Positions 7,717 to 58,300 of a stretch of DNA of 58,300 bases are shown here, piece after piece. Position 1 is the stretch's first letter, and each line of letters starts with the position of its first letter. Source of the DNA: Clostridiales bacterium (lineage in GTDB: Bacteria; Actinomycetota; Coriobacteriia; Anaerosomatales; SLCP01). The notes under the pieces were generated by a model. That model had not been told where the DNA came from. It did not search any database and saw only the letters and a program-made list of their open reading frames with translations. The DNA lies in the NCBI GenBank assembly GCA_018333995.1, contig JAGXSG010000009.1, positions 1 to 58,300 of the forward strand. The letters are read 5' to 3'. The position numbers and the translations under genes are program-made.

Positions 7717-8298
7717 ATGCTGTCGGCCCTGATTACATCCAAGGCCCGGTTGGCCTTGCTCACGCTCTTCCTGACCCATCCGGAGGAGCGCTTCTATCAG
7801 AAGCAGCTCATCCGTAACCTCGGGCTCTCGTCATCGCTCGTGCAGGCCGAGCTCAAGCGGCTGGAGGGCGTTGGACTTCTCATCAGCTCACGGGAGGCCA
7901 ACACCCGCTACTTCACGATCAACAAAGCCTCCCCGGTCTACCCCGAACTGAAGAGCATCGTCTTCAAGACGGTCGGGCTCGCCGAATTCTTGCACGACTC
8001 GCTCGACACGATCGGCGATGTGGAGACCGCGCTCATCTACGGGTCGGTCGCGAAGAACGTCGAGGACATGCGCTCCGATGTGGACGTGCTCGTGATCGGT
8101 GATGTCGATATGGACGCTTTGAATGAAGCGGTCGACGCAGCCGAGCGGGCAATCGGCCGCGAGATCAATACAACCGTATATGGGCGCGAGGAGTGGGCCG
8201 AGAGGGTCAAGATCGGACAGGCCTTCGTGACAGACATGCTCTCTGGTCCGAAGATCTTTCTCATAGGAGATGAAGATGAGCTTCGAAGAACTACTTAG
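7717..8298 (+). CDS. HTH-nucleotidyltransferase (MNT-type) protein, putative antitoxin and regulator
   Basis: 193 aa. Residues about 1-75 form a winged-helix domain (helix-turn-helix around QKQLIRNLGLSSSLVQAELK, then a wing). Residues about 85-190 form a minimal nucleotidyltransferase fold with the GS-x10-DVD signature (G109, S110, D121, D123), which binds nucleotide and two metals. MNT proteins paired with HEPN proteins act as antitoxins, in studied cases by AMPylating the HEPN partner. The gene overlaps the downstream HEPN gene by 23 bases, so the two are surely co-translated. The added HTH suggests it also represses its own operon; that is inference. It resembles the common 'nucleotidyltransferase domain-containing protein' annotated beside HEPN genes. 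Confidence 0.8.
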   Translation: MLSALITSKARLALLTLFLTHPEERFYQKQLIRNLGLSSSLVQAELKRLEGVGLLISSREANTRYFTINKASPVYPELKSIVFKTVGLAEFLHDSLDTIGDVETALIYGSVAKNVEDMRSDVDVLVIGDVDMDALNEAVDAAERAIGREINTTVYGREEWAERVKIGQAFVTDMLSGPKIFLIGDEDELRRTT

Positions 8299-8731
8299 GA
8301 GGCGCACGGTCGAGCGCGTGACGGTCACTTCGCGGGAGATCGCGGAACTCTTGGCGCTCTCCAAGCGCGACATCAAGGCCGCCGGGGCCATGCTCGGCAC
8401 CGATCTCGACTGGGCGTTTGCCATCGCGTACAACGGCGTCTTGCAGATGTCGATCGCTTACATGAACCATCTCGGCTACCGGCCGCGAGGCGAGGGTAAG
8501 CACTACAACACGTTCCGGTTCATGGAAGAGGCGCTGCCCGAAGATGCTCAGATGATCCGGCGGCTTCAGAAGCTGCGCCGCAAGCGGAACACGACCATCT
8601 ACGAACAATCGGGGCTGGTGAGTGACAAGGAGGCTCGAGACGTGATCTCGTTCGCTTCACGTTACTACGCTTCCATCGAGGCGAAGCTCCCGCGCGATAT
8701 CACGGGGCAGGTACCCAAGGAGGATGCGTGA
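8276..8731 (+). CDS. HEPN-domain protein, putative toxin partner of the MNT gene
   Basis: 151 aa, mostly helical. I chose the ATG at 8276 over the one at 8270 because AGGAG at 8265-8269 sits 6 bases before it and touches the earlier one. HEPN RNases carry R-x4-6-H near the C-terminal helix; here the equivalent stretch is RRKRNTTIYE with R104 and N105 in place but Tyr109 where His is expected. The protein could be an RNase variant, a non-catalytic HEPN, or one whose Tyr is the modification target of its nucleotidyltransferase partner. Overlap with the upstream gene marks the pair as a unit. Family assignment is good; toxicity is inferred. Confidence 0.72.
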   Translation: MSFEELLRRRTVERVTVTSREIAELLALSKRDIKAAGAMLGTDLDWAFAIAYNGVLQMSIAYMNHLGYRPRGEGKHYNTFRFMEEALPEDAQMIRRLQKLRRKRNTTIYEQSGLVSDKEARDVISFASRYYASIEAKLPRDITGQVPKEDA

Positions 8732-9710: not shown

Positions 9711-10901
9711 TCACTCGTACCGAAGCGCGTCGATCGGGTCGAGCCGAGACGCCTTGTACGCGGGGTACACACCAAAAAAGATCCCGACCGCCGCGGAGAA
9801 CGTGAACGCGAGCGCTACCGCCCACAAGGTGACCTCTGTTGGAACCCAGCGCGAGAGAACCGCCGCACCCGAAGCGCCAAGGGCAATGCCCACGATCCCT
9901 CCCACCACCGACAAAGACACGGCCTCGATGACAAACTGGCTCATGATGTCGTAGGTTCGCGCGCCCACCGCCTTGCGGATGCCTATCTCTCGCGTGCGCT
10001 CGCTCACGCTCACAAGCATGATGTTCATGATGCCGATACCACCTACGAGCAGCGATATCCCCGCGATGCCAGCCAACATGAATGTCAGCGTGCCGAGAAT
10101 CGCCTGAAACAACCCGAGTGTCTGATCTTGGGTGAAGACCGTGAACTCATCTCCGAATCCCGGGCGCAGGATCCGTTCAACCTGGCGTTGGACCTGGGGC
10201 ACCTCATCGGCGGACTCGGCTTTAACGACAATCGAAGAGATGTCGGTCGACCCAAAGATTCGCTGCGCGGTCGTGACTGGCATGTATATCTGGTTGTCCT
10301 GATCTCCCGTAAGCGAGCCTCCCTGCGCAACGACGTGTCCGATAACCGTGAACCGCTGCCCGTTGATCGAGACAGACCTGCCAAGGGGATCTTGATTGGG
10401 GAAGAGGGTCTCTCGGACGGTAGCTCCGATGACAACAACCCGAGAAGCCGCGGCCACCTCGCTGCGCCGATAGCCGCGGCCATCAGCGTAGTTCGCAGCG
10501 AAAACTGAATCGGAGTACTCATTTCCCGCCGCGATCATCGTCCGCATCGTGCGATTGCCCACCCGCAGCGCCGCCGGACCCTGTGCGATAGGCACGACGA
10601 TGTGGCGCACGTCGAGGCGTCGACGGACGAGATCCGCCTCGTCGAGAGTGAACTGCCGCCGAATCGAAGCGCCACCGCCAGGCCCCCCACCCTCCTCGAA
10701 GTTACCCGGGAACACAAAGATCAGGTTCGACCCCAGGCCCTCGATCGATCCTGCGATATCTTCCTGCACCCCGGTTCCGATCGCGACGAGGAGAATAACC
10801 GCCGCGACGCCGATAATGACGCCGAGCATGGTGAGCGTGCTTCGCACCTTGTTCGCGCCAAGGGCTCGCACCGCTACTCGAACGCTCTCCCAGAGATTCA
10901 C
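9711..10901 (-). CDS. MacB-like ABC transporter permease (FtsX family)
   Basis: 396 aa. Topology is MacB-like: an N-terminal membrane helix (TLTMLGVIIGVAAVILLVAIGTG, broken here by description) at about residues 20-42, a periplasmic/extracellular domain of about 220 residues (MacB_PCD), then three FtsX helices from about residue 275 to 385. It differs from E. coli MacB in that its ATPase is a separate protein. The ATG overlaps the stop of the upstream ATPase gene by 4 bases (10898-10901), showing translational coupling. With the adaptor it forms a three-gene export operon; substrate unknown (macrolide, peptide or lipid are possible). Confidence 0.88.
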   Translation of the reverse strand: MNLWESVRVAVRALGANKVRSTLTMLGVIIGVAAVILLVAIGTGVQEDIAGSIEGLGSNLIFVFPGNFEEGGGPGGGASIRRQFTLDEADLVRRRLDVRHIVVPIAQGPAALRVGNRTMRTMIAAGNEYSDSVFAANYADGRGYRRSEVAAASRVVVIGATVRETLFPNQDPLGRSVSINGQRFTVIGHVVAQGGSLTGDQDNQIYMPVTTAQRIFGSTDISSIVVKAESADEVPQVQRQVERILRPGFGDEFTVFTQDQTLGLFQAILGTLTFMLAGIAGISLLVGGIGIMNIMLVSVSERTREIGIRKAVGARTYDIMSQFVIEAVSLSVVGGIVGIALGASGAAVLSRWVPTEVTLWAVALAFTFSAAVGIFFGVYPAYKASRLDPIDALRYE

Positions 10902-11707: not shown

Positions 11708-13231
11708 CTACCTGACACTGACGCGCATACCGTCAGTAAGCTCATCAGCGCCGCCGAGCGCGACCCGCTCGCCTGCGACGACTCCGGACATGATCTCTAC
11801 GCTCGCCTCGGTCAGGGTTCCAACTTCCACACGCCGGCGCTCAAGCCGGTCTCCATCACCGAGCACGTATACGTATGATCCCTCGGCGTCTTCAAAAAGC
11901 GCCTCGATAGGCACGGTCACCACAGCCTGGATCCGCTCGATCTCTATCGTGGCGTCGCCCTTCATGCCGAGCAAAACAGCGTCCCCGCTCCCGTTGACAC
12001 GCAGGTACACAGGGAAAACCGTCCCGCCGGTCGCGGTGAGGGTAGCTGCGGGGCGAATCTCAGACACAGTCGTCTCAAACGAACGCTCTGGTAGCGCATC
12101 GAGGCGCACCGCTGCGTCCAAACCGATATCGACAAGAGCGATGTCGACCTCATCGACCTCCGCCACAAAGCGTACTGCGTCAAGCTGGACGACGGTGAAC
12201 GGGGCCGTCTGCGGCCCCACCACCGCACCTGACGCCGCCCTGGGCACCGCGCCATCGGAGGATGGAGCCCCCAGTGCGTTAAACAGCACCGTCCCATCGA
12301 TCGGGGCCCTGAGCTCGGCCTTCGCGCGGTTCTCCTCGGCGAGCGTGAGCGCGCGGCGCGCCTGCATCACGCCTGCGCGTGCAGCCGACCGCTCCGGGGA
12401 CAGGTCAAGGTGTTCGAGTTTCTCCTGCTGCGCCTTAGCGCTCAGGTATCCGGCGTGCGCCTGCTCGACCGCAGCGTCCGCGGCGCTCTGCTGCGCCGAG
12501 AGATCGGCAGTGCGCAACGCCTGTTCTGTCGCCTGCGCGCCAAGATACGCCGCCTCGGCCTGAGCCAGGGCTACTGCCGCGGCACTCAGGCTTGTCTCCG
12601 CCGAGGGCGAGGGCGCGGCATCGTACGCCGCCTTCAGCGCATCGTAGGATTTCGACGCCTGATCATACGCGGCTTTCGCCGCGCGAGTCGCGGCGGAGGC
12701 TGCGCTGACCTCGGAGTCTCCAGGCGCCTGCCCTCTCACGGAATCGGCGGCTTCCCGGGCGGACCGGTACGCCGCCCACGCCGCATCCGTCCCCTTACGA
12801 GCGGCCGCAAGCTCAGCGGCGCCAGGTGCCCGGTCATCAACAGCGGAAAGTCCCGCCTGCGTCTGCAAGAGCGCCGCTTCGGCCTGCGCTACAGCAAGAT
12901 CGAGCGGCCCGGTGTCGAGCACCGCGATCACACTCCCGGCGCGCACCGTTTGGCCATCCGCGACACGAACTTCGGCAAGCGTCCCGGCGACGGGGGGAAA
13001 CACGTCGCCTCGCGAGCCCGACTCCACCCGGCCCGGAGCGGTCACCGTCACCGTGAGATCCTCCACCATGGCTGTGGCAACATCTACCTCGGCGGCGGGC
13101 CTATTCGCCCCCACCGTCACCGCCGCGGCCACACCTCCGACTACTACAAGCGCAGCCACTAAACCGATCACCTTCGTCTTGGGCGACACTGGCATCCCTT
13201 CGCTCTGGGTGACGCGTCCTGCGCGCGACAC
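11708..13231 (-). CDS. MacA/HlyD-like efflux adaptor protein
   Basis: 507 aa. A single N-terminal helix (KVIGLVAALVVVGGVAAAV) is followed by a biotinyl-lipoyl half-motif (GRVESGSRGDVFPPVAGTL), a long Ala-rich coiled-coil hairpin of about 230 residues, the second lipoyl half (RAPIDGTVLF), and beta-barrel and membrane-proximal domains. Such proteins couple MacB-type transporters to export; in single-membrane bacteria they act at the outer face of the membrane. The GTG at 13231 gives the longest frame; the ATG at 13195 (MPVSPKTK) is a good alternative, and neither has a convincing ribosome site. First gene of the three-gene efflux operon. Confidence 0.85.
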   Translation of the reverse strand: MSRAGRVTQSEGMPVSPKTKVIGLVAALVVVGGVAAAVTVGANRPAAEVDVATAMVEDLTVTVTAPGRVESGSRGDVFPPVAGTLAEVRVADGQTVRAGSVIAVLDTGPLDLAVAQAEAALLQTQAGLSAVDDRAPGAAELAAARKGTDAAWAAYRSAREAADSVRGQAPGDSEVSAASAATRAAKAAYDQASKSYDALKAAYDAAPSPSAETSLSAAAVALAQAEAAYLGAQATEQALRTADLSAQQSAADAAVEQAHAGYLSAKAQQEKLEHLDLSPERSAARAGVMQARRALTLAEENRAKAELRAPIDGTVLFNALGAPSSDGAVPRAASGAVVGPQTAPFTVVQLDAVRFVAEVDEVDIALVDIGLDAAVRLDALPERSFETTVSEIRPAATLTATGGTVFPVYLRVNGSGDAVLLGMKGDATIEIERIQAVVTVPIEALFEDAEGSYVYVLGDGDRLERRRVEVGTLTEASVEIMSGVVAGERVALGGADELTDGMRVSVR

Positions 13232-28907: not shown

Positions 28908-29711
28908 GTGTCAGGCGGAACCGATACGGGCGCTACGGCCACCAAGCGCGCAAGAGTTTTTGCGATAGTCAATCAGAAGGGCGGTGTGGGCAAGAGTACT
29001 ACCGCCGTCAACCTTACCGCATGCCTGGGCGACGCCGGGAAGAAGGTTCTTCTTGTGGACCTGGATCCGCAGGGCAACGCAACGTCCGGCTATGGTCTCA
29101 ACAAGAACCAGCGGCAATCGTGCATTTATGACGCTCTTCTTGGCGGCGAACCCATGGAGGGGCTGATCGAACCCGTCGAAATCGAACGTGTGTTCGTTGT
29201 TCCGGCGACCATCCAGCTTGCAGGAGCCGAGATCGAACTTGTATCGGCGATGAGTCGTGAGGGGCGGCTCAAGAGCATCCTAGAGTCTGTTGTGTACGAC
29301 TTTGACTACATCATCATTGACTGCCCGCCGTCGCTGGGGCTGCTCACCATCAACGCCCTTACTGCGGCAAATGGTTTGATCGTCCCGATTCAGTGTGAGT
29401 ATTACGCCCTAGAGGGCCTTTCAAAGCTTCTTGATAGCGTACGGCTCGTGAAGGCACACCTGAATCCTGAACTTGAAGTCTTCGGCGTGGTGATGACCAT
29501 GTACGACGTGCGGACTCGTCTTTCACAACAGGTGGTGGACGAGGTCAGGGACTTCTTCGGGGAGAGGGTCTTCGAGTCCCTGATACCGCGGAGTGTTCGG
29601 CTGTCGGAGGCTCCAAGTTTCGGACAGCCAGTGACCCTTTACGACCCCACCGGCAAGGGGGCGGATTCCTATCGAGCACTGGCGAAGGAAGTGATCGATC
29701 GTGTCGACTAG
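28908..29711 (+). CDS. parA: Chromosome partitioning ATPase ParA (Soj)
   Basis: 267 aa from the GTG at 28908, preceded by GGGAGG with 7 bases spacing; an in-frame upstream ATG at 28845 has no ribosome site. Deviant Walker A KGGVGKST at residues 24-31, switch motif DLDPQGNATSG, and IIDCPPSLGLLTINAL. ParA binds DNA non-specifically as an ATP dimer and moves ParB-parS complexes. Overlaps parB by 11 bases. Confidence 0.96.
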   Translation: MSGGTDTGATATKRARVFAIVNQKGGVGKSTTAVNLTACLGDAGKKVLLVDLDPQGNATSGYGLNKNQRQSCIYDALLGGEPMEGLIEPVEIERVFVVPATIQLAGAEIELVSAMSREGRLKSILESVVYDFDYIIIDCPPSLGLLTINALTAANGLIVPIQCEYYALEGLSKLLDSVRLVKAHLNPELEVFGVVMTMYDVRTRLSQQVVDEVRDFFGERVFESLIPRSVRLSEAPSFGQPVTLYDPTGKGADSYRALAKEVIDRVD

Positions 29712-51573: not shown

Positions 51574-54471
51574 ATGAGCCTGACTCTGGCCCGCCTCCTG
51601 GTTCCCGGCACCGATGACGACGTCGCTCACGCGTACGCCGCAACATCCGCGCGCGTTGCCGAGGAGACGTTCGGGCTTGAGGAAGAGGTCGCGCTCGTCG
51701 ACATCGAGACGACCGGCTTTGACCCCGGACGCGACGCGCCGATAGAGTTCGCGGCCGCCATAATGCGCGGTCCTGAGATCGTCGCGCGCTTTCACACGAT
51801 GGTCGATCCCGGACGCGATGTGCCACTCGAGATCGTGCAACTCACCGGCATCACGCAAGAGGCCCTCATTGGAGCGCCGCCCGCTGAAAAGGCCGCGCTT
51901 GATCTTGCCGAGTTCGTGGGCGGCCGCGATGTTGTGGCGCACAACGCACCGTTCGATCGCGGCTTTCTCGAGCATCTCGCGGGGCCGTCACGTTTTCCGG
52001 GCGAGTGGATCGACACACTGCAACTCTCGCTGATCGCGTTTCCGCGACTCGCGAGCCATCGCTTGCGTGATCTTGCGGAGGCGTTTGGCGCACACACGCC
52101 TTCGCACCGTGCTCAAGACGATGTCGAGGCGCTCGCTACGGTGTGGCGCGCGTGCCTATGCGGCCTGAACGATCTCGGTCCGGCGTTGCTTGGGCGGCTC
52201 GCCGCTTTGGCTCCGGGTGCGAAGTGGCCAGCACGATCCACGCTCGCGCACCTCGCCGCCGGTGCGCCAGCGACGCGGTTCGATCTGCGCACCGCGCGAT
52301 CTGAGCGCGTCTCGGCGGAGAAAGGCGACGCGCTTTGCGACGCGAACGACATTGAGTGCGCTACCCCCGCGGTCGATCAGATCGCCGCCGAGTTCGACTC
52401 AGGGGGCATTGCGGGCCGGATGTACGCGGGTTTTGAGGCGCGCGCGGAGCAAGCCGAGATGGCGCGTGTCGTCACTAGCGCGTTTGCGAGCGGTGCGTAC
52501 GCGGCGATAGAGGCGGGCACCGGTGTGGGGAAATCGCTCGCGTACCTCGTGCCCGCGGTCCGGTTCGCGCTCATGAACGAGGTGGGCGTTGGGATAGCGA
52601 CCAAGACCAACGCGCTCATGGACCAGCTGATTTACGGGGAACTCCCCGCGCTTGCGTCAGCCCTCGGCGACCTGCCCGCCGCCGAGCTGCGCTTCGTCGC
52701 GCTCAAGGGCTACGAGCACTATCCGTGCGTCAGGAAGCTCGAGCGATTCGCGAACTCGCTTGACGATCGGGCCGCACCGGACGCTATCGGCGTTGTCGCC
52801 GCGCTTATCGCGTGGTGCGTCCAGTCGTCGTGGGGGGATGTGAGCGCGATCAATGCGCACCTGCCGCGCGAGGTGCTCGGCGAGGTGACGGCGTCGGCGG
52901 CGGAGTGCACCCGCAAGCACTGCGGCTACTTTCCTTACCGGTGCTACCTGCACGGAGTACGGCGCCGCGCCGCGTCGGCTCACATCGTCGTGACCAACCA
53001 CGCACTGCTCTTCAGGGATGCGGTAGCCTCAGGCGGGATACTCCCTCCGATTCGTTTCTGGGTGGTTGACGAGGCGCACGCCGCGGAATCGGAGGCGCGC
53101 AAACAGCTCTCGATGGTGTGCTCGCGCCTCGAACTGTCGCTGCTGTTCACCGCGCTTGGGGGCTCGCGCGGAGGATTCGCCGAGGAGATCTCGAAGCGTG
53201 CGCGCAGGGCGGGCGTGGCTGATCCTGGTGCGATCGATTCTGCCTCGGCGGAACTATCCCAGACAATCGAGGAAGCAGCCACGCTCACGGCGTCACTTTT
53301 CGAGTTCGTGCGTGACGCTGTCCCTGCCGCCGATGACGGCTACGACGTCGTCGACGTTCGCATCGACACACAAATTCGGCAGAGTCCGTCGTGGGCCGCG
53401 GCGCTGCGCGTGGGGCGTTCGCTCGCCCAACGGCTCGATGCGGCCGTGCTTGCGGGCAGACGGCTCGCGCTTGCGCTGGAGGAAGGCGGAGGGGCTACGG
53501 CCGACGCACGCGCCGATCTCGCGGGCCTGCTCACCCGCGTTGCCGACCAGCACATCGCGCTCACAACCGTCATCGATGGTGAGGCCAGCGAGTACGTGTA
53601 TCACGCGACGATAGATCGCCGTCCCGCCGCGCGCGCCGACAGACTCGCGGCATCCCGTCTCGATGTGGGCGAGGCGCTGCTAGACGACTTTTATCCGCGG
53701 ATCCGCTCGGTAGTGTTTACCTCGGCCACGATCGCCGCAGGTGACGATTTCTCGCACTTCGCGCACGCGGTGGGACTCGATCGGCTCGGTGAGGAAGAGG
53801 CGTATCGTACGGTACGGCTTGCTTCGAGTTACGACTTCGCTCGGCAGATGGGGGCGTTTGTCCCGACGGACCTCGGCGAGCCGGGCACTCCCGCCTACCA
53901 CGAGGCGCTTGAGCGGCTACTTTACAGCGTGCATGTGGCGATGGGCGGCTCGGTGCTTACGCTGTTCACCAATCGGCGTGACATGGACCGGCTGTATCGC
54001 GTGCTGGCGCCGCGCCTGGCCGAGCAGGGCCTCTCACTCCTCGTGCAGGGTCGCGGGGTCTCGACCAAGCGGTTGCGAGACGAGTTCCTCGCCGATGTTC
54101 ACGCCTCCCTTTTCGCGACCAAGTCGTTTTGGGAGGGATTCGACGCTCCTGGAGAAACGCTTCGGTGTGTGGTGGTGCCCAAGTTGCCGTTTGGGCAGGT
54201 GGGCGACCCGCTCACGCGCGAGCGTGAGGAGCGCTACGGACGCGCGGCGTGGAGCAGGTTCTACCTGCCCGCCGCGATCATAGAGCTCAAGCAGGCAGCC
54301 GGGCGGCTGATCCGCTCGGCAAGCGACACGGGATGCCTTATCATCGCTGACGGCCGGGTGCTTACGAAGTCCTACGGGCGAGAGTTTCTTGGTGCTTTGC
54401 CAGTGGCTGATGTCGAGCGGATGCCGACGGCGACGATGGTGGCTCGAGTCAGCGAGCGCTTTGGGAGGTAG
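51574..54471 (+). CDS. dinG: DnaQ-like exonuclease fused to DinG-family Fe-S helicase
   Basis: 965 aa. Residues about 38-200 are a DEDDh 3'-5' exonuclease: VDIETTGF (D43, E45), VAHNAPFDRGFL, and HRAQDDVEA. From about 290 an XPD/DinG helicase: Walker A EAGTGVGKS near 315; Fe-S cysteines (HYPC, then CTRKHC and CGYFPYRC near 385-460); WVVDEAH near 500; SATI; SFWEGFDAPG; and QAAGRLIRS. The fusion is typical of Gram-positive DinG. It unwinds and trims DNA in repair. Its end overlaps pafC by 23 bases. Confidence 0.92.
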   Translation: MSLTLARLLVPGTDDDVAHAYAATSARVAEETFGLEEEVALVDIETTGFDPGRDAPIEFAAAIMRGPEIVARFHTMVDPGRDVPLEIVQLTGITQEALIGAPPAEKAALDLAEFVGGRDVVAHNAPFDRGFLEHLAGPSRFPGEWIDTLQLSLIAFPRLASHRLRDLAEAFGAHTPSHRAQDDVEALATVWRACLCGLNDLGPALLGRLAALAPGAKWPARSTLAHLAAGAPATRFDLRTARSERVSAEKGDALCDANDIECATPAVDQIAAEFDSGGIAGRMYAGFEARAEQAEMARVVTSAFASGAYAAIEAGTGVGKSLAYLVPAVRFALMNEVGVGIATKTNALMDQLIYGELPALASALGDLPAAELRFVALKGYEHYPCVRKLERFANSLDDRAAPDAIGVVAALIAWCVQSSWGDVSAINAHLPREVLGEVTASAAECTRKHCGYFPYRCYLHGVRRRAASAHIVVTNHALLFRDAVASGGILPPIRFWVVDEAHAAESEARKQLSMVCSRLELSLLFTALGGSRGGFAEEISKRARRAGVADPGAIDSASAELSQTIEEAATLTASLFEFVRDAVPAADDGYDVVDVRIDTQIRQSPSWAAALRVGRSLAQRLDAAVLAGRRLALALEEGGGATADARADLAGLLTRVADQHIALTTVIDGEASEYVYHATIDRRPAARADRLAASRLDVGEALLDDFYPRIRSVVFTSATIAAGDDFSHFAHAVGLDRLGEEEAYRTVRLASSYDFARQMGAFVPTDLGEPGTPAYHEALERLLYSVHVAMGGSVLTLFTNRRDMDRLYRVLAPRLAEQGLSLLVQGRGVSTKRLRDEFLADVHASLFATKSFWEGFDAPGETLRCVVVPKLPFGQVGDPLTREREERYGRAAWSRFYLPAAIIELKQAAGRLIRSASDTGCLIIADGRVLTKSYGREFLGALPVADVERMPTATMVARVSERFGR

Positions 54472-55405
54472 TGGCGTCGTGTTCGCGGCGGCGTGTCTCG
54501 CGAGCGACGAGCGCAGCGACCGCCTCTCGGACCTCGAACGGCTCGATCACCGTCGCGTCGCCGAGATAAGAAGCCACCTGCCGGGCGATCCACGCGGTGC
54601 CTGCGTACGGGACCTCGACGAGCGTGCCCGGACCATCACCAGGAACCACGCGCATGCCCGGCCATTCGCGTTCCGGCGGATCGATGCCGGGGGCAAGTGC
54701 GATCGTGGCGTGCGGCAGTTTACCCGCGGGCAGGATCTGACCGTCAGGTTCGAAGTGCGGTGATTCGAAGTGCTCGCCCAGGGGGGTCGCCTCGAAAATC
54801 CGGTCGATGCGAAACGTGCGCGGAGCGCCAGCGTGGCGGCAGAACGCGTGCGCGTACCACGCGCCGCGCTCGCTTTGGAGCGCGAGGGGCTCGATGGTGC
54901 GCCTGGCAGGCGTGTCGTCAGCGCGGCCTTGGTACTCGATGCGGACGCGCTCGCGATTCGCCACCGCGGCGGCCAGGATGGTGAGAGCGCCATTGTCCGG
55001 AGCGGTTGCCGCCCGGACTGCGCGCTCTACCTCGCCTGCGTCGATGGTGGACGCCGCCGCGAGCACTCGGGTGACGAGCGGGTCGTCTTGGGTGCGCCCC
55101 GCCGTTTGTAGCGCGGCGACGAGAGCGCGCGCCTCTGCGGCGGTGAGCCGGATCGCACGGTCGAGGGCGGGCATCTGGCCGAAGACGTGCACCACCCCGT
55201 CTTCCACGTAAAGCGGTACGGCGGTGAGCGGGTCGTACGGGTCGGCCGCGCACAGTGAGAGCGTCTCGAGATCGGCCGTCAGCCCGAGCTCGCTCACGCC
55301 GAGCTGCTCGGCGAGGTCGGCGACGCGTGTCTCAAGACCCGGCTCCAGGTGGCGGATGAGAGCGAGGAGGCGCCGGGCCCGGTTTGCGTGCGAGCCGTCA
55401 CCCAT
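54449..55405 (-). CDS. pafC: PafC-like WYL-domain transcription regulator
   Basis: 318 aa from the ATG at 55405, overlapping the end of pafB by 8 bases; a longer frame upstream lacks support. N-terminal winged helix (RARRLLALIRHLEPGLE, RVADLAEQLGVSEL), a central helical part (LTAAEARALVAALQTAG), and a WYL domain near 155-230 (VRIEYQGRADD, RTIEPLALQSERGAWYAHAFCRH). PafBC activates the mycobacterial DNA-damage regulon with LexA-independent control. No proteasome genes are nearby. Confidence 0.87.
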   Translation of the reverse strand: MGDGSHANRARRLLALIRHLEPGLETRVADLAEQLGVSELGLTADLETLSLCAADPYDPLTAVPLYVEDGVVHVFGQMPALDRAIRLTAAEARALVAALQTAGRTQDDPLVTRVLAAASTIDAGEVERAVRAATAPDNGALTILAAAVANRERVRIEYQGRADDTPARRTIEPLALQSERGAWYAHAFCRHAGAPRTFRIDRIFEATPLGEHFESPHFEPDGQILPAGKLPHATIALAPGIDPPEREWPGMRVVPGDGPGTLVEVPYAGTAWIARQVASYLGDATVIEPFEVREAVAALVARETRRREHDATTSQSAR

Positions 55406-56372
55406 GTGCCTCGGCCACCTCCTCGAGTCCCGCCGAGAGCTCCTCGGCCAGAGCGGGAGGAGAGAGGATCTCGATGCCGGGGCCGTTCGCGATGGTCCAG
55501 CGCAAGAGGCGCCTCCGGTCACGCGCGGTGATCTTCCAGTGCAGCCGCGTATCGGCGCCGTCCGCGACCTCAAGCGTGCCGACGCCGAAGGTCAACGCGC
55601 GAGCGCGCCACGCCGCTGCCGAAGAGAACGCGAGCGTGGCCTCGAACGGTTCGCCGTGGCCGTACTGGAAGGGCAGTCCGATGAACGAACGGACGTCGAA
55701 TCCGTCCAGACGCTCGAAATCGGGCGACTTGGGCCGTGCGGTGTTCGGGGTCAGCTTATCGATACGAGCGACAGCAAAAACGCGCATCTCATCGGTTGCG
55801 GCGTCTCGGCCCACGACGTACCAGCGGCCCTCGCGCAAGAACAATCCGTACGGCTCGATCTCGCGGGCGCGCCGCTCGCCCGCCGAGTTCACGTACTCAA
55901 ACGCGACACGCTTTCTTGAAGATGCCGCTGCCGACAAGGTAGCCACCCGTTCACCCTGGGAGGCCGGATCCTCATCAGCTAGGCGGGAAGACGCGGGGGA
56001 GGGAGAGATGTCGAGCGCCGCGATTTTGGTGAGCGCGAAGCGAAGATCCTCGGCGAAGGGAAACCCCGGATCGCCGAGGAGCGCGGTCGCGACGGTGCGC
56101 ATGGCGACCGTCTCTTCACGTGAGAGGGTGAGGCTGGTCGCGAACGTGGACGCGGTGTCGAGGAGGTTGCGTCCATCGGGGGTCGATGTGATGACGAGAC
56201 CTGCTTCGCGAAGACTTTCCTTGTCGCGCTCGAACATCCGTTCAAAGGTGTCGTAGTCCTGGGTCTCAGGATAGCCAAGCACCTCGGATCGAACACGTTC
56301 GGTCGACACAGGTTCACGCGCCGACGCCAGGAACAGGGCAAGATTGACGAGTCGCTCTATCGCGGCAGACAC
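55398..56372 (-). CDS. pafB: PafB-like WYL-domain transcription regulator
   Basis: 324 aa. GTG start with GAGGAGG 6 bases upstream. N-terminal winged helix (ERLVNLALFLASAREPVS, then ERMFERDKESLREAG), a central region, WYL domain near 150-225 (VAFEYVNSAGERRAREIEPYGLFLREGRWYVVGRD, read in parts) and WCX domain at the C-terminus. Forms a heteromeric activator with PafC. Divergent from the integron integrase gene. Confidence 0.88.
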   Translation of the reverse strand: MSAAIERLVNLALFLASAREPVSTERVRSEVLGYPETQDYDTFERMFERDKESLREAGLVITSTPDGRNLLDTASTFATSLTLSREETVAMRTVATALLGDPGFPFAEDLRFALTKIAALDISPSPASSRLADEDPASQGERVATLSAAASSRKRVAFEYVNSAGERRAREIEPYGLFLREGRWYVVGRDAATDEMRVFAVARIDKLTPNTARPKSPDFERLDGFDVRSFIGLPFQYGHGEPFEATLAFSSAAAWRARALTFGVGTLEVADGADTRLHWKITARDRRRLLRWTIANGPGIEILSPPALAEELSAGLEEVAEAHG

Positions 56373-56688
56373 ACAAGGCCTCCTCGGCAGGGTCCTGGCG
56401 ATTGTATCGCAGCCGGACTGGAGCGGTCCCGGGGGTGGGGTGAGAGTGGGGGATATCGTGCCGACGTTTGTTCGGCAAAAGGAAACGAGGCGCGTGGGGG
56501 GCGCGCCTCGTCTATAAGAGCTGGCGGGATCCGCCCCTGAGGGGGGAGGAGAGGGCGGGTCGCCATGCCCCTAACACTCGATAAGCAACGTGTGTGCCAG
56601 TTTTCCGGTGGAATCGAGAAAGGACTGATTAAAGCTGGATCAGAATCGAGTAAGGGGTGGCGTGCATTATGAAAGGGGAGGGGAGCGC
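56373..56688. other. Divergent gap between pafB and the integron integrase
   Basis: 316 bases. Contains the minus-strand hairpin terminator at 56485-56511 and 13-base direct repeats GAATCGAGAAAGG (56611-56623) and GAATCGAGTAAGG (56643-56655), one mismatch, 32 bases apart, just before intI. No gene is evident and no attC-like pair was found. Confidence 0.4.
56485..56511 (-). terminator. Minus-strand terminator upstream of pafB
   Basis: ACGAGGCGCG and CGCGCCTCGT form a perfect 10-bp stem; on the minus strand it is followed by TTCCTTTTGCC. It would stop transcription entering pafBC from the integrase side. Confidence 0.6.
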
Positions 56689-57702
56689 ATGGGTATCAGG
56701 TCGCCTGAGGGCCGGGCTGGCGGGGGGCCGGATGGCTCGCACGGCTCGCCGCGCCTCATGGACCGCGTGAGCGCGGCGCTTCGCACGCGTCACTACAGTC
56801 CAGCTACGGAGCAAGCGTATTGCCTGTGGGTGCGCAGGTACGTGCGTTACCACAAGTTGACGCACCCCGACGAAATGGGAGAGGCCGAGATCAACGAGTT
56901 CCTCACCCATCTGGCACTCGATAGGCATGTTGCCGCGTCGACGCAGAACCAGGCGCTGTGCGCGCTACTCTTTTTGTATCGGCACGTGCTTGGGCGGGAG
57001 ATCGGCGACCTCGGCGACGTGGTGCGGGCTCGGAAATCCACGCATCTGCCGGTGGTCCTGAGCCGCGAAGAGGTCCGGGCGCTCTTCGCCTGCCTCGACG
57101 GCGAGATGCGTCTTATCGCATCTCTGATGTATGGCACGGGCGTTCGGTTGTCCGAGTGCCTGCGACTCCGTGTTCTCGACATCGACCTCAGTCGCAAAGA
57201 GATCACGGTTAGAAGCGGCAAAGGCGCCACCGACAGGGTCACGATGCTGCCTGAGGCACTCGTGAAACCGCTCAGGCAGCACCTTGTTGCAGTGCGAGCG
57301 CTGCACGCGAAGGATCTCGCTGAGGGGTGGGGTCGCGTTGCGTTGCCGGCAGCCCTCGCGAGCAAGTATCCGTACGCGGCGTGCGAATGGAAGTGGCAGT
57401 GGGTGTTTCCCCAGCAACGGCGGTGGCGCAATGAACGGACCGGCGAGGAGGGGCGCCACCACGTGCACACGACGGTGGTACAGCGTGCCGTCAGCTCTGC
57501 GGTACGCAGCGCTCGCATCGAGAAGCACGCGGGATGTCACACACTGCGGCACTCGTTCGCCACGCACCTGCTCGAGGCGGGTTACGACATCCGGACGATC
57601 CAGGAGTTGCTCGGGCACAAGAGCGTGCGCACGACGATGATCTACACACACGTGCTCAACCGCGGCGGGCGCGGGGTCCGCAGTCCGCTCGACGCGATGT
57701 GA
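56689..57702 (+). CDS. intI: Integron integrase (IntI-like tyrosine recombinase)
   Basis: 337 aa. ATG 56689 follows GGGGAGGGGAGCGC. SAM-like N-terminal domain ([20 protein letters not shown]). Catalytic set: R153 (GVRLSE), K178, H284-R287 ([13 protein letters not shown]), H310 (LLGH), Y319 (TTMIYTHV). Between them lies the IntI-specific insert ([17 protein letters not shown] near 215-231) that XerC/D lack, and the end [17 protein letters not shown] is diagnostic. IntI recombines attI and attC to capture and shuffle gene cassettes. Divergent from pafB, same direction as the downstream lipoprotein gene. Confidence 0.93.
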
Positions 57703-57780
57703 GAGCGGCATGCGGAATGGGGCCGCGGAACCTTGGAGCGGGTGGTGATGGGGTGGGGGGCGACGGGGTGACGGTTGCCG

Positions 57781-57935
57781 GGGTGTTATGCAGACGGCAG
57801 AATACGCACCGGGTCTTGCGGGCCTGGTTGGAACCAATTGGGCAGATGGGCTACTGTTTGCAGCGAGGTCGCGTAACACCCGCCTGTGGTGAGTGGGGTG
57901 CGGTTGTTTCGCAGAGTGTAGAATGGGAGTTAGGC
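57781..57935. other. Candidate attI region next to intI
   Basis: The 262 bases after intI contain a 101-base imperfect inverted repeat with ends GGGTGTTATGC (57781-57791) and GCGTAACACCC (57871-57881), ten of eleven bases pairing, and the core-like GTTAGGC at 57929-57935, which fits GTTRRRY. GTTATGC, GTTACGC (minus strand) and GTTAGGC are all integrase core-site-like. The lipoprotein gene starts 30 bases after the last one. The repeat's ends face outward (GTT...AAC), the reverse of an attC. Confidence 0.4.
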
Positions 57936-57964
57936 ACAGTTCACGGATGAGGTAGGGGGTAGTC

Positions 57965-58300
57965 TTGGCGGGGGCGTCTCGCATCGTGGTCTTCCTCCCC
58001 CTGGTGTTGACGGCGGCACTCGGTCTTGGAGCCTGCGCGATGCAGGACAAAGTGATTGAGCTGTCCCCTGGTGACACGTTCACGACACAGAGCGGATTGA
58101 CCCTGACCATCCCGCAAGGGGCATCCGCCACAGTCACAAAGCCGACGCCCGACGAGATTCAGACAGATGTTCCTTTCACGGAGTTCCTGGACCTGGAAAT
58201 CGATGATTCGCTCGCAGTGGTGCTGATGAGCTTCTCGGGTACCCAGCGCAACAAGACCGACGCAACTGTCGTTGCAACGGAGAGCGATGTCGCCGTTCTC
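57965..58300 (+). CDS. Lipoprotein of unknown function, 3' end missing
   Basis: 112 codons visible; runs off the window. TTG start with a GGGGG stretch about 8 bases upstream. Signal peptide with lipobox: RIVVFLPLVLTAALGLGAC, Cys about residue 25. The mature part begins AMQDKVIELSPGDTFTTQSG and looks like beta-rich secreted domain; not recognised. Position right after GTTAGGC suggests a first cassette gene or a stable neighbour; undecided. Confidence 0.75.
   Translation, partial: MAGASRIVVFLPLVLTAALGLGACAMQDKVIELSPGDTFTTQSGLTLTIPQGASATVTKPTPDEIQTDVPFTEFLDLEIDDSLAVVLMSFSGTQRNKTDATVVATESDVAVL

Follow-up and report, generated by a model that had tools for sequence, protein, structure and literature searches.

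An integron with an inverted integrase layout at a chromosomal site in an actinobacterial genome

The end of the 58,300-base stretch of DNA analysed here (the window) is best explained as part of a resident chromosomal integron in which the integrase gene reads towards the cassettes, an arrangement called the inverted integrase layout. We assign this explanation a probability of about 95%. At the level of sequence, the analysis establishes the family of the integrase IntI, the conservation of the attachment site attI and the point at which it ends, the side and direction of the cassette array, and a first cassette whose attC site carries the matching R'' box. The window is the entire contig C9 (58,300 of 58,300 bases) of a genome of 34 contigs and 1.95 Mb. 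The contig ends 598 bases past the integrase gene, inside a lipoprotein gene.

The intI gene (positions 56689–57702, plus strand) encodes an integron integrase of 337 amino acids when read from its ATG; an alternative start is possible at a GTG at 56662. The product scores 458 bits against TIGR02249, for which the cut-off is 265, and no other protein of the window's genome exceeds that cut-off. It aligns to 2a3v (IntI4 of the PDB) over nearly its full length (residues 27–335, E 9.8e-81), and the score and alignment together identify an integron-type tyrosine integrase with the extra domain. The alignment retains the Arg, His-x-x-Arg, His and Tyr positions, which we take to be the catalytic residues. 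The intI reading frame is open and complete. In a related genome, contig C32 of G026 carries three partial intI-like pieces (8241–8567, 10237–10404 and 12868–13035) upstream of a full intI.

The candidate attI site is located between intI and the lipoprotein gene, with its core 226 bases downstream of the intI stop codon. In relatives, the stretch from the intI stop to the first GTTRRRY contains a TTAYRCAGACTGCA-like repeat soon after intI, and then CAGACTGTAGAATCATT followed directly by GTTAG. The repeat TTACACAGACTGCA is found, with at most three mismatches and within 90 bases past intI, in 17 of 32 loci. Its match in the window, the proximal attI repeat GTTATGCAGACGGCAGAAT (57785–57803, plus strand), could be aligned with that of G005 and is probably an accessory integrase-binding repeat. 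The counterpart of the relatives' attI core is CGCAGAGTGTAGAATGGGA followed by GTTAGGC, ending at 57935. Its left half, GTTTCGCAGAGTGTAGAATGGGA (57906–57928, plus strand), borders the junction core GTTAGGC (57929–57935, plus strand). The consensus derived from relatives, AGACTGTAGAATCATT followed by GTTAG, comprises 21 positions with a fixed GTT; the site at 57929 matches 16 of the 21 and departs from the consensus at TGGGA. No other site on either strand of the 58.3 kb reaches 14 matches. When the 598 bases after intI were shuffled 20,000 times, scores of at least 14, 15 and 16 appeared in 115, 26 and 1 of the shuffles, respectively. Thus, intI is adjoined by a conserved repeat and by a core that is unique in the window.

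Conservation around the core was calculated from 33 of 41 loci (32 without the window), those with a score of 14 or more and with 40 bases available on either side. Positions of the core carry 1.42 bits of information on average. The mean for the 26 bases that precede it is 0.79 bits, and that for the 33 bases that follow it is 0.17 bits, where sample size alone would give about 0.10 bits. Since the information drops after GTTRRRY, conservation ends at the attI core. The sequence-only reading had named GTTAGGC as an attI candidate that unbroken synteny in relatives would call into question. The candidate is borne out, as relatives are conserved before the core and variable after it; pafBC and a dinG-like gene are kept upstream in G003 and G005, and conservation stops at GTTRRRY. 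The heptamer GTTAGGC by itself is uninformative, with two occurrences in the window versus 3.49 expected by chance, and becomes informative within its attI context.

The first gene cassette (57930–58300, plus strand) is cut by the contig end and continues on contig C34 (bases 16–303), where its attC occupies C34:217–303. Its lipoprotein gene (57965–58300, plus strand), which the sequence-only reading had already noted after GTTAGGC, starts with a TTG at 57965, 29 bases past the core. The window holds 112 of its 177 residues, including a lipobox, LGAC. Contig C34 is 3,785 bases long and begins with the window's last 15 bases. This 15-mer has three copies in the genome, two at the contig ends and one inside C22; as a control, its backward sequence has none. 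Other array-contig ends compared with the end of C9 (seven ends tested) overlap it by at most two bases, except for C34. The lipoprotein frame continues across the joint and stops three bases before a canonical attC scoring 75.8 bits. Four further attC sites in the same direction bring the total on C34 to five. The main genes of the cassettes to which these four belong encode a YdjM-like protein, a toxin-antitoxin pair of the Phd/ParE type, an ion channel, and a small protein that matches no Pfam family. A point against the integron explanation is that the C9–C34 joint rests on a 15-base overlap whose 15-mer recurs inside C22.

The attI core GTTAGGC is complementary at seven of seven positions to the R'' box of the lipoprotein cassette's own attC. 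The same boundary rule holds throughout the joined cassettes 1–5, whose opening cores are all complementary to their own R'' at 7/7 (5/5), and the R'' of the preceding attC differs from the cassette core in the four of four that have one. Complementarity between a core and its own R'' is the mark of an inserted cassette. Therefore, GTTAGGC is a real insertion junction, the last six bases of which arrived with the lipoprotein cassette; the crossover would lie between G57929 and T57930. The array that had been anticipated after GTTAGGC is supported through C34, but the window itself holds only its first, partial cassette.

The same evidence bears on the idea that intI is a lone relic (In0), that GTTAGGC is a heptamer present by chance, and that the lipoprotein gene is an ordinary gene of the chromosome. 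Such a relic would account for a heptamer no commoner than chance, for a window with zero attC sites, and for a negative promoter scan. Nevertheless, it is contradicted by the conserved attI context, by the five attC sites of C34 with their exact core/R'' match, and by an open and complete intI, and we consider it highly improbable.

The lipoprotein belongs to no Pfam or NCBIfam family, the NCBIfam search covering the part of the protein inside the window. Weak relatives occur in nine other genomes among the 61 searched (ten including the window's own). Of seven stretches retrieved with such relatives, two (G056 and G016) bear attC sites, and the relative in G056 (34%, E 3e-4) lies between two of them.

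Two other elements near the core were considered as attC sites and rejected. The imperfect inverted repeat of 101 bases (57781–57881) pointed out in the sequence-only reading is present, with arms GGGTGTTATGC at 57781–57791 and GCGTAACACCC at 57871–57881, but it is not an attC. Its ends are arranged as GTT...AAC, where an attC would need AAC...GTT; it has no match to the attC model; and its structure is no better than chance (DNA fold z = +0.45). The left arm overlaps the proximal attI repeat, which is also found in relatives, and at the position of the right arm G005 has GTTACGC in direct orientation. The 65-base segment GCGTAAC...GTTAGGC (57871–57935) was flagged as a degenerate attC by the model-free finder but not by the attC model, and its ends do not pair on the bottom strand. 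Across the whole window, the model detected no attC; the best score, 13.8 bits (E 0.26), lies outside the inverted repeat.

The attC covariance model was built from 37 sites in hairpins downstream of the intI genes of relatives, none of them from the window's genome, and all 37 have the canonical order R''-L''-...-L'-R'. It was applied to the surroundings of 41 intact intI loci from 39 of the 41 genomes with an integrase over the cut-off; G014, which has an internal stop, and G056, which is partial, were excluded. Of 107 attC matches, 106 lie downstream of intI, in 113 kb of sequence, and 104 of these 106 point in the intI direction. Together with the window and C34, they support the same-direction order of intI, attI and array that had been suggested from the window alone. 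Downstream attC matches are missing from 17 of the 41 loci, and 15 of these have less than 800 bases to the contig end.

In the usual integron layout, the array lies upstream of a divergent intI, and an array in that position, with the downstream resemblance incidental, would make this locus like most integrons. The upstream side is, however, occupied by pafBC and dinG, which are fixed there. The sequence-only reading had recognized that an array on the other side of intI would undermine it; upstream of the 41 intI genes we found one of the 107 matches in 312 kb, at more than 10 kb from intI. We regard an upstream array as the least probable of the explanations, bordering on negligible. As the model had been trained on downstream sites alone, two controls for side were needed. 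A model-free finder run on both sides returned 48 candidates downstream, some of them overlapping or spurious, and one upstream. Applied to 80 named loci from many phyla, the attC model located the array on the upstream side, and on the strand opposite to intI, in ten, including Burkholderiales (L103), Acidovorax (L109) and Duganella (L123), and placed attC sites downstream in 14, Treponema among them. Since the model places the arrays of ordinary integrons upstream, it favours neither side.

The side of intI opposite to the array contains pafC and pafB, encoding WYL/WCX regulators (54449–56372, minus strand), in agreement with the earlier assignment of pafBC-like genes to this flank. The order pafB-pafC-dinG adjoining intI is common to G000, G003 and G005, and G003 and G005 carry the nearest integrases. 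It was not seen in the remaining 38 of the 41 loci; in G020 and G052, some pafB, pafC or dinG genes lie within 5 kb of intI. The shared neighbourhood indicates that the position of the integron on the chromosome is fixed within this small group, as in a sedentary chromosomal integron. Between pafB and intI, the minus strand carries a GC-rich element (56480–56564) with six C in a row at two places. It resembles 6C RNA (RF01066), with a score of 18.8 bits (E 2.8) for a gathering score of 47. Of the 61 genomes of the order, 49 conserve this stretch, in most cases at a distance from intI.

Same-direction and canonical layouts were mapped onto a tree of IntI sequences. The tree has 79 rows, taken from 44 of the 80 named loci, less five with internal stops (L049, L087, L096, L113 and L123), and from the 41 relatives' rows, from which L036 was dropped as a copy of L048. 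Layout labels on the 43 labelled rows require two changes, whereas shuffled labels require 6.7 on average, and none of 500 shuffles was as low as two. The window's IntI groups with those of G003, G005 and G038, of which G005 is shown as inverted, and a mostly canonical clade is adjacent in this midpoint-rooted tree.

At least 43 attC matches were found in the window's genome on eight contigs other than C9, a lower bound, as scoring covered 150 of the 2001 candidates from a first look. These sites, including the five on C34, have the R''/L''/L'/R' structure. On C34, C5 and C25, the core matches its own R'' exactly in all 22 cassettes, four of which are non-discriminating, as the preceding R'' is identical; the match is also exact in 17 of 17 cassettes of G045. 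Among 31 cassettes of the window's genome, 22 (4/4 on C34) have their longest open reading frame in the direction of the attC, and nine do not. The end of L174 and L175 share a 93-base overlap in an attC region, which links C5 to C25 in reverse. The assembly was probably broken there by several near-identical cassettes, each about 245 bases long. Contig C29 (L177, 295–10253) carries an attC-like array with degenerate cores and no exact core/R'' match in nine cassettes, and is perhaps the old end of the array or a relic.

Signals for expression of the integron were searched for in the window. A consensus scan revealed no sigma-70-like promoter for intI or the array, although the promoters of this group may differ, and neither a promoter nor a terminator between intI and the cassettes. 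In this genome, CGAACACATGTTCG stands in front of lexA. The best intergenic match to such a LexA box near intI, at 56461–56474, has three mismatches, a level shared by dozens of other sites in the window, and a two-mismatch site of the LexA type lies inside pafB. SOS control through LexA, known from other integrons (PMC3108266, in part), is therefore not supported for this intI. These negative results, like the off-consensus attI core, weigh against the integron explanation. Elsewhere in the window, CGAACGTGTGTTCG at 29183–29196 differs by one mismatch from the consensus of the boxes upstream of the genome's own lexA, and is a possible LexA site of another gene.

The lack of a recognizable promoter or LexA box, the departure of the attI core from consensus, and the degenerate C29 array (0/9) would all fit an integron that is real in its attI and array but whose IntI no longer moves cassettes. 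This is unlikely, though the most plausible of the rivals, because intI is open with its key residues kept, and the 22 of 22 exact core/R'' matches on C34, C5 and C25 are those expected of recent insertion.

In integrons, IntI binds double-stranded attI and the folded bottom strand of attC and cuts at G/TT, and replication resolves the product. By analogy, we propose that IntI made from the gene adjoining pafBC is active, and that it would recombine the folded bottom strand of the attC hairpins of circular cassettes into attI. With attI downstream of the intI stop codon, new cassettes would enter at GTTAGGC, and the array would grow in the reading direction of intI. The lipoprotein gene would then be the last-inserted cassette, followed by its attC and four cassettes on C34, with further pieces of the array on C5, C25 and other contigs. 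Cassettes would be both excised and integrated, and their transcription may come from intI by read-through or start at a promoter within the attI region.

In ten of the 41 loci (L039, L042, L127, L027, L128, L131, L133, L041, L022 and L043), the stretch between intI and attI holds a toxin-antitoxin module, formed by BrnT with a CopG-like antitoxin, a MazE-like protein with Fic/Doc, or YefM with YoeB. Two module kinds stand in tandem in L131, and different kinds occupy the same place in sister integrases. The BrnT of L043 looks frameshifted, and in L135 the stretch holds a BrnA-like antitoxin alone. Queries with these modules outside the order matched none of the named loci; the single match among 47 was L046, and L046 and L135 have identical integrases. 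In the integron of the window, this stretch is free of such modules. We speculate, with somewhat less than even confidence, that same-direction integrons are old residents of the order and that their intI–attI stretch serves as a docking place for toxin-antitoxin modules. As the stretch has no attC, a module could not be shuffled out of it, and loss of the platform would be lethal. Docked modules would guard the platform; known toxin-antitoxin cassettes stabilise arrays.

The layout is already known, and what is unexpected is a common resident system in actinobacteria. An integrase over the cut-off is present in 41 of 61 genomes of the order, which is probably Anaerosomatales (OPB41), versus 9 of 242 in a sample from the rest of the phylum. 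The host is unusual because a survey of complete genomes with IntegronFinder 2.0 reported zero complete integrons for the Actinobacteria and raised the question of an incompatibility between integrons and clades of this kind (PMC9024848, in part). A review, in the section available, lists Actinobacteriota among the phyla with integrons (PMC8618304). Within open-licence literature, covering titles and the starts of abstracts, we found no prior description of integrons in this order. The integrase-bearing genomes of the order, with their arrays, attI sites and matching boundaries, make the question of incompatibility testable. They also provide a large added set of same-direction integrons for asking how the cassettes of an array that lies downstream of intI, and on its strand, come to be expressed.

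Integrons with the same direction of intI and cassettes have been documented for Treponema (excerpts of PMC3607928 and PMC4909258), and the divergent layout is given as usual in most integrons (PMC3607928, same excerpts). The chromosomal integron of Treponema denticola resembles the present one in that intI is transcribed toward attI, in the cassette direction (PMC3607928, in part), and T. brennaborense has a GTTAGGT core after intI (PMC3607928, in part). It differs in belonging to another phylum, and its IntI is placed elsewhere in the tree than that of the window. Typical integrases of Spirochaetota are described as being in reverse orientation (PMC9668308, in part). One paper describes the inverted integrases as forming a sub-clade of the soil/freshwater IntI clade (PMC8352920, in part), and another divides IntI into three groups, of which they make up one (PMC10500605, in part); their layout is that of the window, and the portions of these two papers available name no actinobacterial member. 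Exact complementarity of R and R'' was reported for 51 of 58 integron cassettes from oral metagenomes (PMC4909258, in part). The class 1 integron and the Vibrio cholerae superintegron share with this locus the IntI family, the R''-L''-L'-R' structure of attC, the cassette boundary rule, and an attI with accessory repeats (attI1 repeats; PMC10500605, in part). In both of them, intI diverges from the array, whereas the intI of the window reads into it.
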